IMG/VR virus record: IMGVR_UViG_3300034198_014730
Coordinates: 1-33,646 of that record
DNA length: 33,646 bases
From: a virus
Direction: 5' to 3' (one strand)
In this document: positions 11,606 to 22,088 of the stretch, in pieces
Layout: each line of letters starts with the position of its first letter
Numbering within the stretch: position 1 is the stretch's first letter
The notes under the pieces: generated by a model
Databases searched by the model: none
What the model was told of the DNA's origin: nothing
The model's input: only the letters and a program-made list of their open reading frames with translations
Program-made: the position numbers and the translations under genes

Positions 11606-14248
11606 ATGGGCGCAGGGCAAGTGCTGATTCACCAGATGCGACAGGCCGGGACCTACGATCCCGAGAAGCTCGGCGCGCGATGCGACAAGTGCGTCCTGCG
11701 TGAGATGCGCGTCGGTGGGCCGGTGCCGCCCGAGATCGACTTCGGCAACTCGATTGCCATCATCGCCGAGTCGCCCGGCGAGAAAGAAGTCGAGCGCATG
11801 CGGCCGTTGGTTGGTGCGTCGGGGCTGGAGTTCAACAACTCGCTCTCGGCGATCGGCATGAGCCGCAAGGACCTGAACCTCCACAACGCTCTCGCGTGCC
11901 GCCCGCCCGAGAACGACCTCGACAAGGTCCTGCTCAAGTGGCAGCGCGGCAACAAGAAACTGGAGGAGCCGCTCCCGAGCCCGATCGAGTGCTGCCGCCC
12001 GCGGTTGCTCAACGAGATCGACGGCGTGTCGAACATCGTGACGCTCGGCAAGGTCGCCTACCAGAGCGTGACCCAGCGCGCCAAGAGCGTGATGGAGATT
12101 CGCGGCGGCCCCATCGAGGGCTGGTTCGACGAGATGTCGAACTTCTGCACGGGCGACTCAATCGATTCGCAGCACCATCGAGTGAAGATCCTTCCGACGC
12201 TGCACCCGGCCTTCGTGATCCGCACGCGGCGCTGGGCCCGCGCGTTCAAGAGCGATCTCTCGCGCGCGTTCCGCTGGTTCACCGTCGGCCTCAACTGGCG
12301 GGAGCCCGACATCACGATCAATCCGAGCCCCGCCGTGCTGGCCGCGTTTCTGGCGAACAGCGAGACGACCTACGCGGTCGACTTGGAGACCTCGTTCGAT
12401 GACCCGACGTGCAACGACCTCCGCACCGTCGGCATCGGCCACGAGAGCGCAGCCGTCGTCTGCGTGCTGAAGTCCATCGAGACCGGCGACTCGGCCTACC
12501 CGTCGCACATCGACCACGACATTCGACGCATCCTGAAGGACTTCTTCATGGACAAGTCGAAGATCAAGGTGGGCCACAACGCCGGGTACTTCGACCAGAT
12601 GGTCATCCGAAACCACTTCGGGATCGACATGGACCCGCTGTGGGACACGATCCTCATGCACCGTGTCGTCGAGCCGGAACTTCCGCACAAGCTCGCCTAC
12701 GTCGGCAGCATTTACACCGACGTGACCTCGTGGAAGGAGAACCACACGGCGAGCGAGGCGCGCAGCGATCAAGAGCTTGCGGCCTACAACGGCATCGACT
12801 GCGTCGTCACCGCGCGCGTCGCACCGCAACTCGCGCAAGCGGCTCGTCTGCGTGGACAGATGGACGTGATGAAGTTCGATCATCGCGTGCAGAAGGTCTG
12901 CGTCGGCCTCCACGAGAACGGACTCCTCGTCGATCGCGCGGCCCGTGACGTCATCGCGAAGAAGCTCCTGATCGACATGGCCGAGTACAAGCGGCAGGGC
13001 AGCGAGATCGTCGGCAAGCCGATCAACATGAACAGCGTGTACCAGCTTCGCGATCTCATCTTCGGCGAGTGGAAGATCCAGCCCGCCGAGTACACGAAGC
13101 TCGGCGACCCCTCGACCAACGACGAATCGATTCGCACGATGCGCTCGTCGAACAAGGACAACAAGCAAGCCGTCGCCTTCTTCGACACGCTGCGCCGCTA
13201 CCGCACCGTCGCGAAGGAGTACGGCACCTACGTCAGGCGCCTCATCCCCTACGGGATGCCGCTCGATCTCACCGTCGGCTTTCAGAACGAAGACGAGCAA
13301 GAGGACGCCGAGCGCGGACTGATCCTCCGAGACGGCCGCGTGCGGCCTGACTACAACGCGCACGGCACCACGTCGGGCCGACTGAGCAGCTCGAACCCCA
13401 ACGCGCAAAACTGGCCGAAGCACCTTCGCAAGATGATCGTGCCGCAGAAGGGCTGCGTGATCGTCGGCGCAGACGCCGATCAGTTGGAACTCCGAATCAT
13501 CACGGCCATCGCGCAGATCAAGGTGTACCTCGACGCCTTCGCGGCCAAGATGGACCCGCACGCGATGACGGCGAGCCTCATGTTCGGAAAAAACTTCACG
13601 TCGCTCACGCCGAAGACCGAGCAGTGGGACAAGCTGCGTAACCTCTCGAAGGGCATCAAGTACGCGAGCTTCTACGGCTCAGGTGATGAGACGGTCCACG
13701 GCATCATCACGAGCGCAGAAGACAAGCAGGGCAACCTGATGTACCCGGACCTCACCGTCCGCGAGGTCGCCACGATCCGGCGCAACTGGCTCAAGGGCAT
13801 CCCAGAACTGCCGAAGTTCTGGGAGGACAAGATGGATGAGTACCGGAGCAACGGCTTCGTGCTCGACCCGATCCTCGGCCGTCGCCGTGACTTCGAGGAT
13901 GGCGAGGCGTTCAACGAAATCGTGAACCACCCGATCCAGAGCGCGGGCGCGCACATCATCCACATGAGTACCTTCGATCTGCTCGAAGAGATTCCCTTCG
14001 GCAAGTGGGGACCGGGAACCGGGCTCATCTCGCAGGTCCACGACGCCGTGTACGTCGAGGTGCCGTGCGATCACGGCAAGCACGATGGGAAGGATGCCGA
14101 GTTCGGATGGTGCCCGCCGGGATGCCGGTGCGAGGCCAACTGGGCCGCGCGCACGATCGAGAAGCATATGAACCGTTCGCTGCCGCAACTGCCGGGTGTT
14201 CCGTTCAGCGCGAAGGCGAAAATCGGAATGACGTGGGGAGACGTGTAA
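11606..14248 (+). CDS. Family-4 uracil-DNA glycosylase / DNA polymerase I fusion
   Basis: 880 residues in three parts. (1) Residues 1-210: family-4 uracil-DNA glycosylase. Fe-S cysteines C26-DK-C29, RPPEN with C97, and ECC near 129; motif A IIAESPGEKE with RPLVGASG; motif B LPTLHPAFV (about 196-204). (2) About 250-400: 3'-5' exonuclease with VDLETS (Exo I), VGHNAGYFDQ (Exo II) and YNGIDCV (Exo III). (3) About 430-880: family A polymerase. Motif A GADADQLELR (about 621-630), motif B KGIKYASFYG, motif C QVHDAVYVEV (about 810). Motif C has HDA where most family A enzymes have HDE; the catalytic Asp is kept. A Cys/His-rich insert (CDHGKHDGKDAEFGWCPPGCRC span, 14066-14135) follows motif C. N-terminal glycosylase-like domains on phage polymerases are known, for example in SPO1. 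It is the element's likely replicative polymerase. Confidence 0.95.
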   Translation: MGAGQVLIHQMRQAGTYDPEKLGARCDKCVLREMRVGGPVPPEIDFGNSIAIIAESPGEKEVERMRPLVGASGLEFNNSLSAIGMSRKDLNLHNALACRPPENDLDKVLLKWQRGNKKLEEPLPSPIECCRPRLLNEIDGVSNIVTLGKVAYQSVTQRAKSVMEIRGGPIEGWFDEMSNFCTGDSIDSQHHRVKILPTLHPAFVIRTRRWARAFKSDLSRAFRWFTVGLNWREPDITINPSPAVLAAFLANSETTYAVDLETSFDDPTCNDLRTVGIGHESAAVVCVLKSIETGDSAYPSHIDHDIRRILKDFFMDKSKIKVGHNAGYFDQMVIRNHFGIDMDPLWDTILMHRVVEPELPHKLAYVGSIYTDVTSWKENHTASEARSDQELAAYNGIDCVVTARVAPQLAQAARLRGQMDVMKFDHRVQKVCVGLHENGLLVDRAARDVIAKKLLIDMAEYKRQGSEIVGKPINMNSVYQLRDLIFGEWKIQPAEYTKLGDPSTNDESIRTMRSSNKDNKQAVAFFDTLRRYRTVAKEYGTYVRRLIPYGMPLDLTVGFQNEDEQEDAERGLILRDGRVRPDYNAHGTTSGRLSSSNPNAQNWPKHLRKMIVPQKGCVIVGADADQLELRIITAIAQIKVYLDAFAAKMDPHAMTASLMFGKNFTSLTPKTEQWDKLRNLSKGIKYASFYGSGDETVHGIITSAEDKQGNLMYPDLTVREVATIRRNWLKGIPELPKFWEDKMDEYRSNGFVLDPILGRRRDFEDGEAFNEIVNHPIQSAGAHIIHMSTFDLLEEIPFGKWGPGTGLISQVHDAVYVEVPCDHGKHDGKDAEFGWCPPGCRCEANWAARTIEKHMNRSLPQLPGVPFSAKAKIGMTWGDV

Positions 14249-17348: not shown

Positions 17349-18365
17349 ATGGCTACGCGCATGACCGTTCATCAGGCAGCGGACCTCTGGCGAGTGAACC
17401 GGCGCACGATCCTCAAGTGGATCATGGGCAAGGACGCCAGCGGTCGAGGCAAGCGTCTCGTCGAGGGCGAGGACTACGAGGTCGTGGACGCCGACATCGA
17501 CGGCAGGAAGATGTACGTCCTGCTGCGATCGGACTACCCGCCGCCCCGGAATCTCAACCCGATCCCGCGCAAGCCGCGCGGGCGTCAGGGCCCCCGCGAA
17601 GCAGCGGTTGAAGCCGCTCGCGGCCGCACCCACTTTGAACAGGTGGCCAGTCAGGTTTCACCCGTCGAAGTCGTTGAAACCGTTGTCGAGGCGGCTGTGC
17701 CGGTCGGTGGTGATCGGTACAGCCAAATCGATTCGCAGCGCTTCACTCCTGTGGCCCCGCCGCCTCCCACGACCGCGGAAGAGGCGGCCGAGCAGTTCGC
17801 CGTGACGCAGGAAGCCGCGACGCCAGAAGTCGTGACGCCGAAGCCAAAGCGTCGCCGGTCACGCCGAGAAGACGTGATCCCGACGATCGACACCTACCTC
17901 CCGGCGCAGCCGGATCGGCCCGAGGACGAGGAGGAGTTCCAACTCCCCGAGAAGCCGATCCGATCGGCCGTCTCGCCCGAGTACGAAGGCGAATCGATTC
18001 GCACCCAGATCGAGAAGTGGGTGCGCGCCTCGTCGAACGAAGACGCCGATCAGGAAGACCCGGTCGCGGCGTTGCCGCGCTTCCTGCTCAGTACGTCGAT
18101 GGAGGCCGTGGACATCGGAAGCCCGTTCGAGTTCGTGAAGCTCGGACAGCCGGGGATCGAAGCCGCCATGACGCGCGTGCTCAAGGCCTCGCCCATGACC
18201 GACGAGGCGCGGTTCTTCGCGGGTGGGGTCCTGCTGGAGTATCTGGCCAACCACCCGATCCTCAAGCTGCGAAACCTGTCCCCTTCGCCGTACTGGCCCC
18301 GCAAGGGTCAGCTTTCAGGCCTCGGCGCAATCTACGCGCTGCCGCTCTACGACTGGATGCTGTAG
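17349..18365 (+). CDS. HTH protein with long linker, possible replication or regulatory factor
   Basis: 338 residues. Residues about 5-60 (MTVHQAADLWRVNRRTILKWI...GRGKRLVEGEDYEVVDADIDGRKMYVL) resemble a MerR/excisionase-type winged HTH in which a helix-turn-helix precedes a beta wing. A 150-residue Pro/Ala/Glu/Arg-rich linker follows, likely disordered, with two palindrome copies (17725, 17991). The final 120 residues are a folded alpha domain (DPVAALPRFLLSTSMEAVDIG... to LYDWML) unlike anything I recognise. The gene lies directly before the direct-repeat cluster, so it is a candidate binder of those repeats or an initiator; this is inferred from position only. Confidence 0.75.
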   Translation: MATRMTVHQAADLWRVNRRTILKWIMGKDASGRGKRLVEGEDYEVVDADIDGRKMYVLLRSDYPPPRNLNPIPRKPRGRQGPREAAVEAARGRTHFEQVASQVSPVEVVETVVEAAVPVGGDRYSQIDSQRFTPVAPPPPTTAEEAAEQFAVTQEAATPEVVTPKPKRRRSRREDVIPTIDTYLPAQPDRPEDEEEFQLPEKPIRSAVSPEYEGESIRTQIEKWVRASSNEDADQEDPVAALPRFLLSTSMEAVDIGSPFEFVKLGQPGIEAAMTRVLKASPMTDEARFFAGGVLLEYLANHPILKLRNLSPSPYWPRKGQLSGLGAIYALPLYDWML

Positions 18366-18392
18366 CGAGCACTCCCCAGCCCGCGCGCGACG

Positions 18393-18423
18393 CGCCGCCG
18401 TGAGCCGAGAGGCCGCGGCGGCG
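18393..18423 (+). terminator. Likely terminator after the HTH-linker gene
   Basis: CGCCGCCG (18393-18400) pairs with CGGCGGCG (18416-18423), followed by a mixed T-rich stretch (TCGTCGTTCCT). The uridine tract is poor, so termination would be partial or Rho-aided. The stem begins 27 bases after the stop codon at 18365. Confidence 0.5.
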
Positions 18424-18466
18424 TCGTCGTTCCTGCGCCCGTCGAATCGATTCCCGCCCCCAACCT

Positions 18467-18643
18467 TGAGCCCCCGGATGCAGAAATACCCCCCTACCCT
18501 TGGCCCCCTCATGTAGAAACATACCCCCCCTTGGCCCCCGGATGTAGATTGACTCCCCCCAGGACTGGCCCTCGGATGTAGATACCTAAACCCGCGAAAT
18601 CATTAGGTTCTTCCGGGGGCTTGACTTGGCCCCCGGATGCGGG
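18467..18643 (+). repeat. Five iteron-like direct repeats
   Basis: An 18-base unit, best copy TTGGCCCCCGGATGTAGA at 18531-18548, occurs also at about 18467-18484, 18500-18517, 18565-18582 and 18626-18643 with 1-4 changes. Start-to-start distances are 33, 31, 34 and 61 bases, the last close to two units. Between copies four and five lies an inverted core CCGGGGGC (18613-18620) that pairs with GCCCCCGG (18629-18636), and an ACCTAA/TTAGGT pair (18584-18589 with 18603-18608). The helical phasing (about three turns per step) is typical of sites bound cooperatively by one protein, such as plasmid iterons. A promoter is built into the last copy. Confidence 0.8.
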
Positions 18644-18649
18644 TACTAT
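18621..18649 (+). promoter_or_regulatory. Near-consensus promoter inside the last iteron
   Basis: TTGACT (18621-18626), 17-base spacer, TACTAT (18644-18649). The -35 and spacer overlap the fifth direct repeat and an inverted repeat, so a protein that binds the repeats should block or control it. It reads rightward into roughly 1 kb without convincing genes, with transcription predicted to start near 18656. Confidence 0.8.
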
Positions 18650-18655
18650 TGTTTC

Positions 18656-19690
18656 ACCTCGACGGGATGCACGACGGGCCCGCCGGGGGGCAAGGCAAGG
18701 CAAGCGGTGCGCGTGGCTTGTACTTTGGCCCGCGCGTCCCTCTCGCGACGCATGGCGGCGGTGCCGCTAGGCTATCGGGGGAGTGCTCTTTGACAAGCAA
18801 GGGGACCGCGCGAGTCTACCATGACGCGCGATCGTCACAAGCCCCCCCGATGGGAATAAAGCGCGCGAGCGTGATGTATCGGGGACAGGCCGCTAGGCGG
18901 CAAGTAGGGCACCATGTTACCGGCCGGAAGGCCGGGGCGATCGCGGGAAAGGAAAGGCGCGTGCCGCGATAGTAAGCGGCCGAAAAGGTCCCTGATACAT
19001 AGGTTCGCATCGTCTCCAAAACGATGCACCCTTCCCGATATATGCCCAAGCCTGCTAGTATGGCGGCGGATCATGTTGCGGGAGTGAAGGGCGAGCCGTC
19101 ATATGCACGGCGCGCGTACGCTAGACGTTGATCCCGCTACAGTTGCGGCTTGACGCGCGGCGTTCGTGTAAGGCCTAAGAAAGCGGGTAACTATGATTCC
19201 CGCCACTCCTGAGGATGAATGAGCCTCTCGCGAATCGGCTAGACGCACCTAATAGTGAATCGTTTCTCTACGATGCCGCCCGCGGCATTGTATGGATAGA
19301 TCGCCAAAACGGGGCGCCGATTTAATCGCAAGCTCATGCACGCCGGTAAGTATGCACGCAAGTCGCGACTATGCTTAGAGCGTTGAACGGGGGAGCCGAT
19401 AGTGCCGGTGCATTTCGCCGGTTGCGACTATCGGGCGGGCCGGAAGGCCCGTGCGCTGCCCGATGCAGCATCCCAGTCCGAAACGACGGCAATCGTGCCG
19501 TGGGGCAATAGTGCCTAGGACGCGACGCACGACGGGATCGAGCCGGGAAAGCCAGCGCAATAAACAACGGGGCGACGGGTGCAACGGCCGCAAGGCTATT
19601 GCGCCCGTCGCTCCGAATCGAAGGGCCCGCAACGCAATCGATTCGCGGACCTTTCGATTCGGAGCGACACTCCGAAACACGAGACAATCA
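18656..19690 (+). ncRNA. Candidate large structured non-coding RNA (about 1 kb)
   Basis: No credible reading frame: the longest frames lack ribosome sites and codon bias. Instead there are many perfect or near-perfect stems. Pairs on the plus strand are: 18822-18826/18833-18837; 18845-18851/18878-18884; 18889-18893/18897-18901; 18920-18925/18930-18935 (GGAA loop); 18940-18946/18964-18970; 19007-19013/19021-19027; 19078-19083/19132-19137; 19095-19099/19107-19111; 19273-19279/19282-19288; 19396-19403/19427-19434; 19437-19441/19446-19450 (GGAA loop); 19455-19459/19465-19469; 19486-19491/19496-19501; 19504-19507/19512-19515. A 13-base-pair long-range helix (18874-18886/18988-19000) encloses three of them, and two long stems end the block (19572-19668). 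This recalls large ornate RNAs of phages such as GOLLD and ROOL, but I could not match any known family. A replication origin with much secondary structure is the main alternative. Confidence 0.55.
19572..19668 (+). other. Two long overlapping stem-loops, mutually exclusive
   Basis: Stem A: GCGACGGGTGCAA (19572-19584) with TTGCGCCCGTCGC (19599-19611), 13 pairs with one G-U, loop containing a nested GGCC-GCAA-GGCT. Stem B: GTCGCTCCGAATCGAA (19607-19622) with TTCGATTCGGAGCGAC (19653-19668), 16 perfect pairs, with a palindrome copy (19635-19644) in its loop. The two share bases 19607-19611, so both cannot form fully in one RNA. They lie about 60 bases before the start of the gene at 19725. Confidence 0.75.
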
Positions 19691-19724
19691 ACGCGGCCGA
19701 ATAGGCCGCAAGCGAGGGGAAACG

Positions 19725-19886
19725 ATGGAAAAGATCTTTAGGCGCACGCTGCACGCCCTGCCGCTGTCCGCACGGTTCGCGGCTTTCTCGTTCGTGAAAG
19801 AGCGCATCGTTCGCAACTACCGGCTACCCGACACCGTCCGCGGTGTCGGTAGTCTCTTTCTTCGCAACCTTTTGGGAGGGGTCTAG
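19725..19886 (+). CDS. Small basic protein of unknown function
   Basis: 53 residues. ATG 19725 has AGGGGAAA upstream and is preceded by a leader hairpin (GCGGCC-GAATA-GGCCGC, 19693-19709). The protein is basic and partly amphipathic (MEKIFRRTLHALPLSARFAAF, then FVKERIVRNYRLP). No family recognised. It is the first gene after the non-coding block and is separated from the next start by one base. Confidence 0.6.
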   Translation: MEKIFRRTLHALPLSARFAAFSFVKERIVRNYRLPDTVRGVGSLFLRNLLGGV

Positions 19887-19887
19887 C

Positions 19888-20220
19888 ATGCGCGTCAATA
19901 CCCGTAACGTCATCGCCGCTTGGCAGTCCGGCAAGGAATACAGGCGGGAGGATTCTATCTGGACCGATGGCACGTCGATCTTTTCGTACCGGACGTGCCT
20001 CGCAACGCCGCTCGCGGACGGCCTCATGGTTCTGAATCGGACGAAGTACAGTGCGACCACGTCGAACAAGCAATCGGACGTTTCTTTCGCGCTCCGCGGC
20101 ATGATCGCGTGCGAGGTGTCCGGGCTCCATATGGGCGCCGAGCCGCGGCACCTGCTCGACGTGGCGAGCGCGCTGCCCGCCGCGGCCGAGCGCGCGGCCC
20201 GCGTCATGGGCGCGGTCTAG
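19888..20220 (+). CDS. Conserved mobile-element protein with TKYS-TTS motif
   Basis: 110 residues, starting right after the previous stop with GGGAGGGG upstream. The pattern NTRNVIAAWQSGK, WTDG-x3-FSYRTC and VLNRTKYSATTSNKQ is one I recognise from many phages, plasmids and metagenomic elements of bacteria, with conserved W-x-DG, Y-x-T and T-x-YS-x-TTS positions. No function is known. Its C-terminal helix (HLLDVASALPAAAERAARVMG) is lineage-specific. Confidence 0.85.
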   Translation: MRVNTRNVIAAWQSGKEYRREDSIWTDGTSIFSYRTCLATPLADGLMVLNRTKYSATTSNKQSDVSFALRGMIACEVSGLHMGAEPRHLLDVASALPAAAERAARVMGAV

Positions 20221-20305: not shown

Positions 20306-21496
20306 ATGACGAAGCTCACGAGCAAGGCAACCATCAACGCGGCCGGGAAGGCCGCACCGGAGGGCAACGTGGCGAACGTGAACGAGACCTTGGAGACCGT
20401 GGCGGGCGCGGTGTCGGAATACGGCGCGGGCGAGGTCTACAACGTCCCTGTCGCGATCATCTGGTACGAGACCGACAAGGCGGCCGTGGACTACGATCCG
20501 CGCGTCGAGCGCACCCTCCCCGACACGTTCGTCGAGACGATCGAGCGAGAGGGCGTGTTGGAGTCCATCACGCTCCGCGAGTCCGTCAACCCGGCGAACC
20601 CGAAGCAGACGCTCAAGGTCGTCAACGGTAAAACCCGCTTCCGCGCGGCGCTCAAGGCCGGTCTCGCGCTCATCAAGGGTGGCATCGTCACGGCCGACGC
20701 GAAAAAGGCGCTGGAACTTCAGGTGCTTTTGAACGCGCACCGTTTCGCGGACGAGAGCGATCTTCAGTGCGACAACGCGGCCCGTCTCGCGGCCCTTGGC
20801 TACAGCGTGGCCGAGATCGCGCGCGTCTTCAACGTGCCCGAGTCAACGGCCCGCAACACGCTCAAAATCGTGAAAACGGTCCCCGAAGTTGCCGCGAGCC
20901 CGCACCTGTCGTTCGCGGCGAAAGAGGAACTGTCCCGCCGCGACCCGGAGACCGTCGCCGCGGCCCTCCCGATTCTCGAAGACGTGGCTAAGGCCGCGGA
21001 GCTTTCCAAGGACGGGAAGGCCGACGCGGGCCTCGCCAAGGGCAAGGACGGGAAGGCGTCCCGCAAGGCCGATGCGACGGTCAAAGAGACCAAGGACGGG
21101 CGCAAGGTGGGACAGGCGTCGCACTCCGCGACCAAGGGGCTCTGCGACGTGATCGAGGGCAAGGACAAGGAGCCCGCGAAGCCCGCGAAGCCCGCCGCGC
21201 CCGCTAAGGCCCCGGCCGTGGCCGCGAAGGACACGCGGCCCGACGCGGGATCGCTCCGCGCGAAGGCGGCGCTCTGCCGCGCGGTGTCCGGTCTCGCGAA
21301 GGGCACGGGGGCGGCGGCCGAGTCGCACCGCGCCTTCGTGGCGGGCGTGCAAGCGGCCCTGTTCTTCGCGGCCGGGGACAAGCTCGACACGCTCCCCGGT
21401 GGCCCGATCACGCCCGAGGTCAAGGCGGCCGTCGCCGACGCCCTCGCCCGCCTGTTCAAGGACGCGACGCTGGCCGAGGACAAGGCGGCGGCGTAG
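20306..21496 (+). CDS. ParB/KorB-like DNA-binding protein
   Basis: 396 residues. About 40-145: ParB N-terminal domain with the ESITLRESVNP...KVVNGKTRFRAALKAG block, where NGKTRFRA stands at the usual GERRWRA position. About 160-188: helix-turn-helix RLAALGYSVAEIARVFNVPESTARNTLKI, as in ParB/KorB central domains. From about 255 it becomes Lys/Ala/Pro-rich and probably disordered, then ends in a helical domain. The start codon follows a leader in which the palindrome is extended to 18 bases (20276-20293). It has no ParA neighbour in the window. It could be a centromere-binding or KorB-like global regulator and is one candidate for the protein that reads the repeated palindrome. Confidence 0.85.
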   Translation: MTKLTSKATINAAGKAAPEGNVANVNETLETVAGAVSEYGAGEVYNVPVAIIWYETDKAAVDYDPRVERTLPDTFVETIEREGVLESITLRESVNPANPKQTLKVVNGKTRFRAALKAGLALIKGGIVTADAKKALELQVLLNAHRFADESDLQCDNAARLAALGYSVAEIARVFNVPESTARNTLKIVKTVPEVAASPHLSFAAKEELSRRDPETVAAALPILEDVAKAAELSKDGKADAGLAKGKDGKASRKADATVKETKDGRKVGQASHSATKGLCDVIEGKDKEPAKPAKPAAPAKAPAVAAKDTRPDAGSLRAKAALCRAVSGLAKGTGAAAESHRAFVAGVQAALFFAAGDKLDTLPGGPITPEVKAAVADALARLFKDATLAEDKAAA

Positions 21497-21866: not shown

Positions 21867-22088
21867 TTGTGTCACGCATGCGGCCGTAAACTTGACCGAC
21901 ATACCGGCGCCTTGTGCGTCGGTTGCCTACTTCACGCGGGCGATTGCGAGTGCGCGCCACGCGAATCGATTCGACCCACTAAAACGCTCGACGTAAAAAG
22001 CACGGCCCTCCCGCCGCATAGAGTGGTGAGAGGCACGAAAGCAACGGGCCGCAAGGCCCATGACGCGCGGGATTCCCGCGCAAGGTGA
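21867..22088 (+). CDS. Possible small zinc-ribbon protein (TTG start)
   Basis: 73 residues starting two bases after the previous stop at a TTG. CHACGRKL...CVGCLLHAGDCEC forms a plausible zinc ribbon. The C-terminal 30 residues run through the palindrome (ESIRP at 21963) and into the leader hairpins of the next gene, and look unstructured. Either a genuine coupled gene or a decaying one whose end has been replaced by leader sequence. Confidence 0.4.
   Translation: MCHACGRKLDRHTGALCVGCLLHAGDCECAPRESIRPTKTLDVKSTALPPHRVVRGTKATGRKAHDARDSRAR

Follow-up and report, generated by a model that had tools for sequence, protein, structure and literature searches.

The window analysed here, a virus record of 33,646 bases, matches a portion of the 57 kb IMG/VR phage contig G001 (the sibling) at 99.8% identity. 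It encodes a uracil-DNA-glycosylase/polymerase A fusion, primase-like, SNF2-like, Sak4 and SSB proteins, a Rad50-like AAA protein, a ParB-like protein, a MoxR/VWA pair and an integrase. Its source is an uncultivated temperate phage group with bacterial hosts, and a search for a close cultured relative returned none. The fused polymerase (11606-14248), with the uracil-DNA-glycosylase domain at its N-terminus, is common to this group. Differences and small indels relative to the sibling are clustered at 22018-22054, a local hypervariable spot in the otherwise 99.8% identical sequence.

A further property of the genome is the strong over-representation of the palindrome CGAATCGATTCG. GAATCGATTC occurs 25 times in the 33.6 kb (e.g., at 403, 1261, 18444, 20280, 21554, 24924, 29042 and 32680), 38 times in the sibling and 59 times in the genome of the relative L008, where base composition predicts fewer than 0.03 copies. 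Ten of the 25 sites lie outside the listed ORFs, although the intergenic share of the window is only 12%. Other relatives carry different dispersed motifs instead, namely GAAACCGATTCC in G027 (20 copies) and CAACCGATTGG in L086/L089. The dispersed CGAATCGATTCG palindrome resembles the stoperators of mycobacteriophages, which are dispersed repressor sites, or ParB sites.

Between the gene of a DNA-binding protein and that of the ParB-like protein lies the region on which this study is focused, with the following features:

17349-18365 (+): gene of an HTH_17-type (excisionase/MerR-like) DNA-binding protein of 338 aa, putative regulator acting on the downstream repeats
18366-19887: gene-free block
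18464-18592 (+): four 31-nt direct repeats at intervals of 31-34 nt upstream of the promoter (core TTGGCCCCCGGATGTAGA), putative operators
18580-18615 (+): CCTAA...TTAGG element, conserved in L008 (CCTAAGTACCCGGAATCACTAGG) according to the window-L008 alignment
18621-18649 (+): promoter TTGACT-17-TACTAT from the promoter scan, with a fifth repeat copy in its spacer (18625-18639)
18656-19604 (+): predicted transcribed body, ORF-free and purine-rich in coding and composition tests, putative noncoding RNA
18871-19006 (+): multibranched domain
19376-19520 (+): second, weaker compact domain with a GGAA-capped hairpin at 19435-19452
19607-19668 (+): terminal hairpin, possibly a 3' end or an attenuator, whose 24-nt arms are 92% complementary and which lacks a T-run
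19828-19849 (+): terminator-like hairpin of 9 bp (TAGTCTCTTT) within the small ORF 19725-19886, alternative 3' end
20306-21496 (+): gene of the ParB-like protein, downstream of the block (ParB_N, E 2.4e-4; PHROG ParB-like, 4e-8)

The preliminary description of this DNA had found no credible coding frame in the block, and this is borne out by three lines of evidence. Codon log-odds derived from the genes of this phage give no coding signal from 18271 to about 20040, none of the chance ORFs within 18366-19887 matches a Pfam family and their PHROG hits stay below threshold (E 0.04-0.06), and a 1-nt insertion at 19306, inside the block, distinguishes the window from its near-identical sibling. The base composition of the body is A 0.21/T 0.17 and G 0.34/C 0.28. 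In the stretch that separates the block from the small ORFs, positions 19684-19721 resemble the start of the ParB-like gene at about 20325-20370 (ATCAACGCGGCCG..AGGCCGCA), a likeness that may perhaps reflect an old partial duplication.

The promoter described earlier was recovered at exactly the same position. It fits the consensus at 9 of 12 positions and is the sole promoter-like site in 18366-19900, for which shuffling predicts 0.5. The iteron-like repeat CTTGGCCCCCGGATG is present in five copies with spacings of 33, 31, 34 and 61 nt. Within the 57 kb sibling, sites with at most three mismatches to this repeat are restricted to the array and the promoter. Since the operators are dedicated to one promoter, with one copy inside it and an HTH gene adjacent, the arrangement is best read, from its layout, as a repressor-operator system. 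The HTH_17 match of the neighboring protein has an E-value of 0.0018.

The same organization is found in two relatives, L008 (a locus in the 85.8 kb genome G003) and L028 (a locus in the 75.4 kb genome G010), both genomes having exact end repeats. In each of them, the AAA gene leads into an HTH gene and a set of repeated motifs; a promoter-like element comes next, then 0.75-1 kb of gene-free DNA, a hairpin whose arms measure 20 nt and, last, a related ParB-like gene. Gene order and control architecture are shared, although the polymerases of these phages have only 58-63% identity to that of the window. L028 is the clearest example. Its HTH protein is a bare DNA-binding domain of 91 aa (HTH_17, E 1.7e-8) with its own terminator-like hairpin 3' of the gene, and is followed by two promoters with 11/12 and 10/12 matches, each holding the operator core CCCCTCTCGCA in its spacer. 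Two inverted copies of this core lie upstream of the promoters, and in G010 the operators occur essentially only at this promoter region. Downstream, about 0.7 kb without genes ends in the hairpin (13136-13181), which is followed by TTTTT. In the case of L008, the HTH protein matches HTH_59 (E 7.8e-5), the promoter is below the threshold of the promoter scan, and the terminal hairpin is found at 19646-19696. The 14-nt sequence GGCCGAATCGATTC occurs at both edges of the L008 gene-free block (18540-18553 and 19716-19729).

Conservation is concentrated in the control region. Upstream of the promoter, window and L008 align with a score of 196, compared to a mean of 118 and a maximum of 171 in 200 shuffles. 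The L028 control region matches the others in layout, but not in sequence alignment. A layout of GGGGCTTG, CCCC and ACTAT/TATACT is common to the window promoter, L008 and both L028 promoters. The block bodies of the three phages, in contrast to this control region, do not align in any pair, and covariance models each built from one sequence, for the two best domains (R1 and R2), recover only their source sequences from 1.08 Mb of relatives. In the collections searched, the only alignable homologue of the block is that of the sibling, with three differences. Judged on sequence, the dissimilarity of the bodies is a real point against a conserved ornate RNA; it is no point against a fast-changing RNA or a unit with a phage-specific product. 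A further relative, G002 (52.6 kb, polymerase 60% identical), has neither a comparable block nor ParB. Scans for additional relatives with the polymerase, AAA, HTH, ParB and Sak4 proteins yielded mostly contigs that end short of the locus, and no prophage was found when the genome collection was scanned with polymerase and AAA.

The preliminary description had depicted about 1 kb of dense structure with more than 15 stems. Local domains and the terminal hairpin stand up to shuffling, whereas the number of hairpins and the overall energy are at chance level: 20 stems of at least 5 bp are seen and 20.4 are expected from shuffles of the same composition. The z of -5.1 obtained for 18656-19650, a stretch including most of the terminal hairpin, is largely due to this hairpin, since z is only -1.66 for 18656-19604, within the range of coding controls from the same genome. 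We rejected the global z as proof of structure. Pieces of E. coli 16S, 23S and RNase P RNA score only -1.4 to -2.2 on the same test and overlap with the coding controls, so the test is powerless here. Above-chance structure is confined to 18871-19006, 19376-19520, 19607-19668 and the GNRA caps. The GNRA-capped hairpins noted earlier (at least 4 bp) indeed exceed expectation, with four on the plus strand against 0.5 in shuffles and none on the minus strand. The first domain has a z of -4.4 (0/100 shuffles, mean pair probability 0.92) and the second a z of -2.7 (0/100 shuffles), values that are somewhat optimistic because these sub-windows, like the terminal hairpin, were picked after a scan. 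The first domain is built from a 13-bp closing helix (ATGTATCGGGGAC/GTCCCTGATACAT), an inner 7-bp helix and a GGAA-capped hairpin (18920-18935); its minus strand is equally strong (z -4.7), so a strand preference is not evident there. In L028, a 301-nt 5' domain at 12455-12755 reaches a z of -5.0 (0/50 shuffles) with low ensemble diversity, and its plus strand beats the minus strand. The L008 block shows no excess structure besides its final hairpin. Terminator-like sites number two in the region against 1.4 expected, which lends weak support to the hairpin at 19828-19849.

Membership of GOLLD or ROOL, as suggested earlier, is not supported. Unlike those RNAs, the blocks have no sequence conserved among relatives. 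Rfam covariance models, including those of GOLLD, ROOL and OLE, leave the three blocks unmatched, and the whole library gave no credible match for the window at the gathering threshold or for the blocks at E-values up to 5. Weak hits on simple hairpins, such as those of microRNA models, were discarded as chance. By covariance models, the block is thus not GOLLD, ROOL or OLE. ROOL RNAs are often, though not obligatorily, found near tRNA islands. No tRNA is present in the five loci scanned, one of which is a stretch of the near-identical sibling genome. ROOL (RF03087) is a large phage noncoding RNA of comparable size; its model had no match in the three genomes at E 10, a result that is weak alone because the controls were unmatched as well. 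GOLLD is likewise phage-borne, gene-less and similar in size (about 0.8 kb), and is raised during lysis (PMC12286853), but its members have a covariance model that the block does not match and a conserved 3' region, unlike the unalignable bodies of window, L008 and L028. A multimeric cage is a further trait of GOLLD. Phage ICP1 produces a noncoding transcript of about 0.8 kb from gene-free space away from tRNAs (PMC7567579). This transcript and those of PLE are known from RNA-seq, whereas the block is known here from its sequence. The PLE IIR RNA has antisense matches to leaders, whereas the block shows no antisense excess; an antisense role was rejected, as complementarity to the rest of the genome does not exceed the shuffled level in the sibling and L028. 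When the blocks were compared with phages and plasmids by blastn, one 35-nt match, to a Methylobacterium plasmid, overlapped an extended open frame and is probably due to chance. The beginning of G027 gave a 22-nt match that is only a GAATCGATTC-like repeat. In kind, the block belongs with the large noncoding transcription units of phages, and this instance is new.

In this study, we propose, with a probability of roughly 0.55, that the block forms a regulated noncoding transcription unit of its own and makes a long, partly structured RNA acting in trans. The architecture conserved in three phages supports a dedicated noncoding unit; transcription, repression by the HTH protein and a function of the RNA are what we infer from it. 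The adjacent HTH_17-type protein would bind the four or five repeated operators and, through the copy inside the promoter, shut the promoter off. Upon its release, for example on induction, RNA polymerase would make a transcript of approximately 1 kb, or 0.75 kb for L028, whose 5' domain is well folded and which carries other hairpins; it would end at the strong hairpin that precedes the ParB-like gene. The product would be the RNA itself rather than a protein, and it may act in trans during lytic growth, in the manner of GOLLD, ROOL and the 0.8 kb ICP1 transcript (PMC12286853; PMC7567579). Against the proposal stand the dissimilar bodies, the lack of excess structure in L008 except for the last hairpin, the ordinary global folding, a window promoter with only 9/12 matches and a window terminal hairpin without T-run. 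The block may represent a new ornate RNA class. We consider it rather unlikely, and hold as a tentative idea only, that there is a new class of large phage RNA whose sequence is completely replaced from one relative to the next, whereas its promoter, operators and genomic position stay conserved. In that case, selection would be on transcription or on a fold that does not depend on a particular sequence.

Alternatively, the promoter could drive the ParB-like gene together with the small ORFs, the block being an untranslated 5' leader of 1 kb in which the terminal hairpin serves as attenuator. The leader sequence would then be of little importance, hairpin and promoter being what counts, in line with a conserved control region and an unconserved body. 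The ParB-like gene lies downstream in the same direction in all three phages, and the terminal hairpins of window and L008 lack a T-run. However, the hairpin and TTTTT at the end of the L028 block should stop transcription, 0.75-1 kb is unusually long for a leader, and the locally significant folds sit in the 5' half. We regard a leader as unlikely.

Somewhat less likely still is a replication origin or partition site, in which the repeats are iterons for an HTH initiator, or ParB binds the block, and the folding reflects extruded DNA hairpins. ColE1-type RNA II preprimer and iteron origins indeed combine a strong promoter with a structured transcript, or repeats, beside a DNA-binding gene. 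The iterons claimed in the preliminary description correspond to real iteron-like repeats, with copies spaced 31-34 nt beside the genes of a DNA-binding and a ParB-like protein, and palindromic hairpins score on the minus strand too. The accompanying origin reading is weakened: promoter spacers are occupied by a single repeat in the window and by two repeats in L028, and a near relative, G002, lacks the block. Furthermore, the L028 HTH protein, at only 91 aa, is a bare DNA-binding domain. Iteron origins have initiator-bound repeats beside an unwinding element where the skew turns; no clear AT-rich element was seen by eye. An essential origin is less likely because the operators overlap promoters, the GC-skew does not turn consistently at the block, and G002 is devoid of both block and ParB. 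No sign of an origin as in ColE1-type or iteron systems was seen at the block. Least likely is a decayed or neutral spacer between two operons whose structure stems from high G+C: the unconserved bodies and chance-level hairpin totals would fit, but in compact phage genomes a block of 0.75-1 kb persists in three divergent cases behind a conserved control layout, and two domains fold beyond all shuffles.

Large noncoding RNAs of phages are among the most abundant transcripts in some infections, and to our knowledge almost nothing is known about their function. A phage group with a dedicated repressible RNA unit, known from three divergent cases and equipped with a clear control region, would be tractable for comparison. 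That the control region is conserved and the transcript is not would limit the roles that such RNAs can have.
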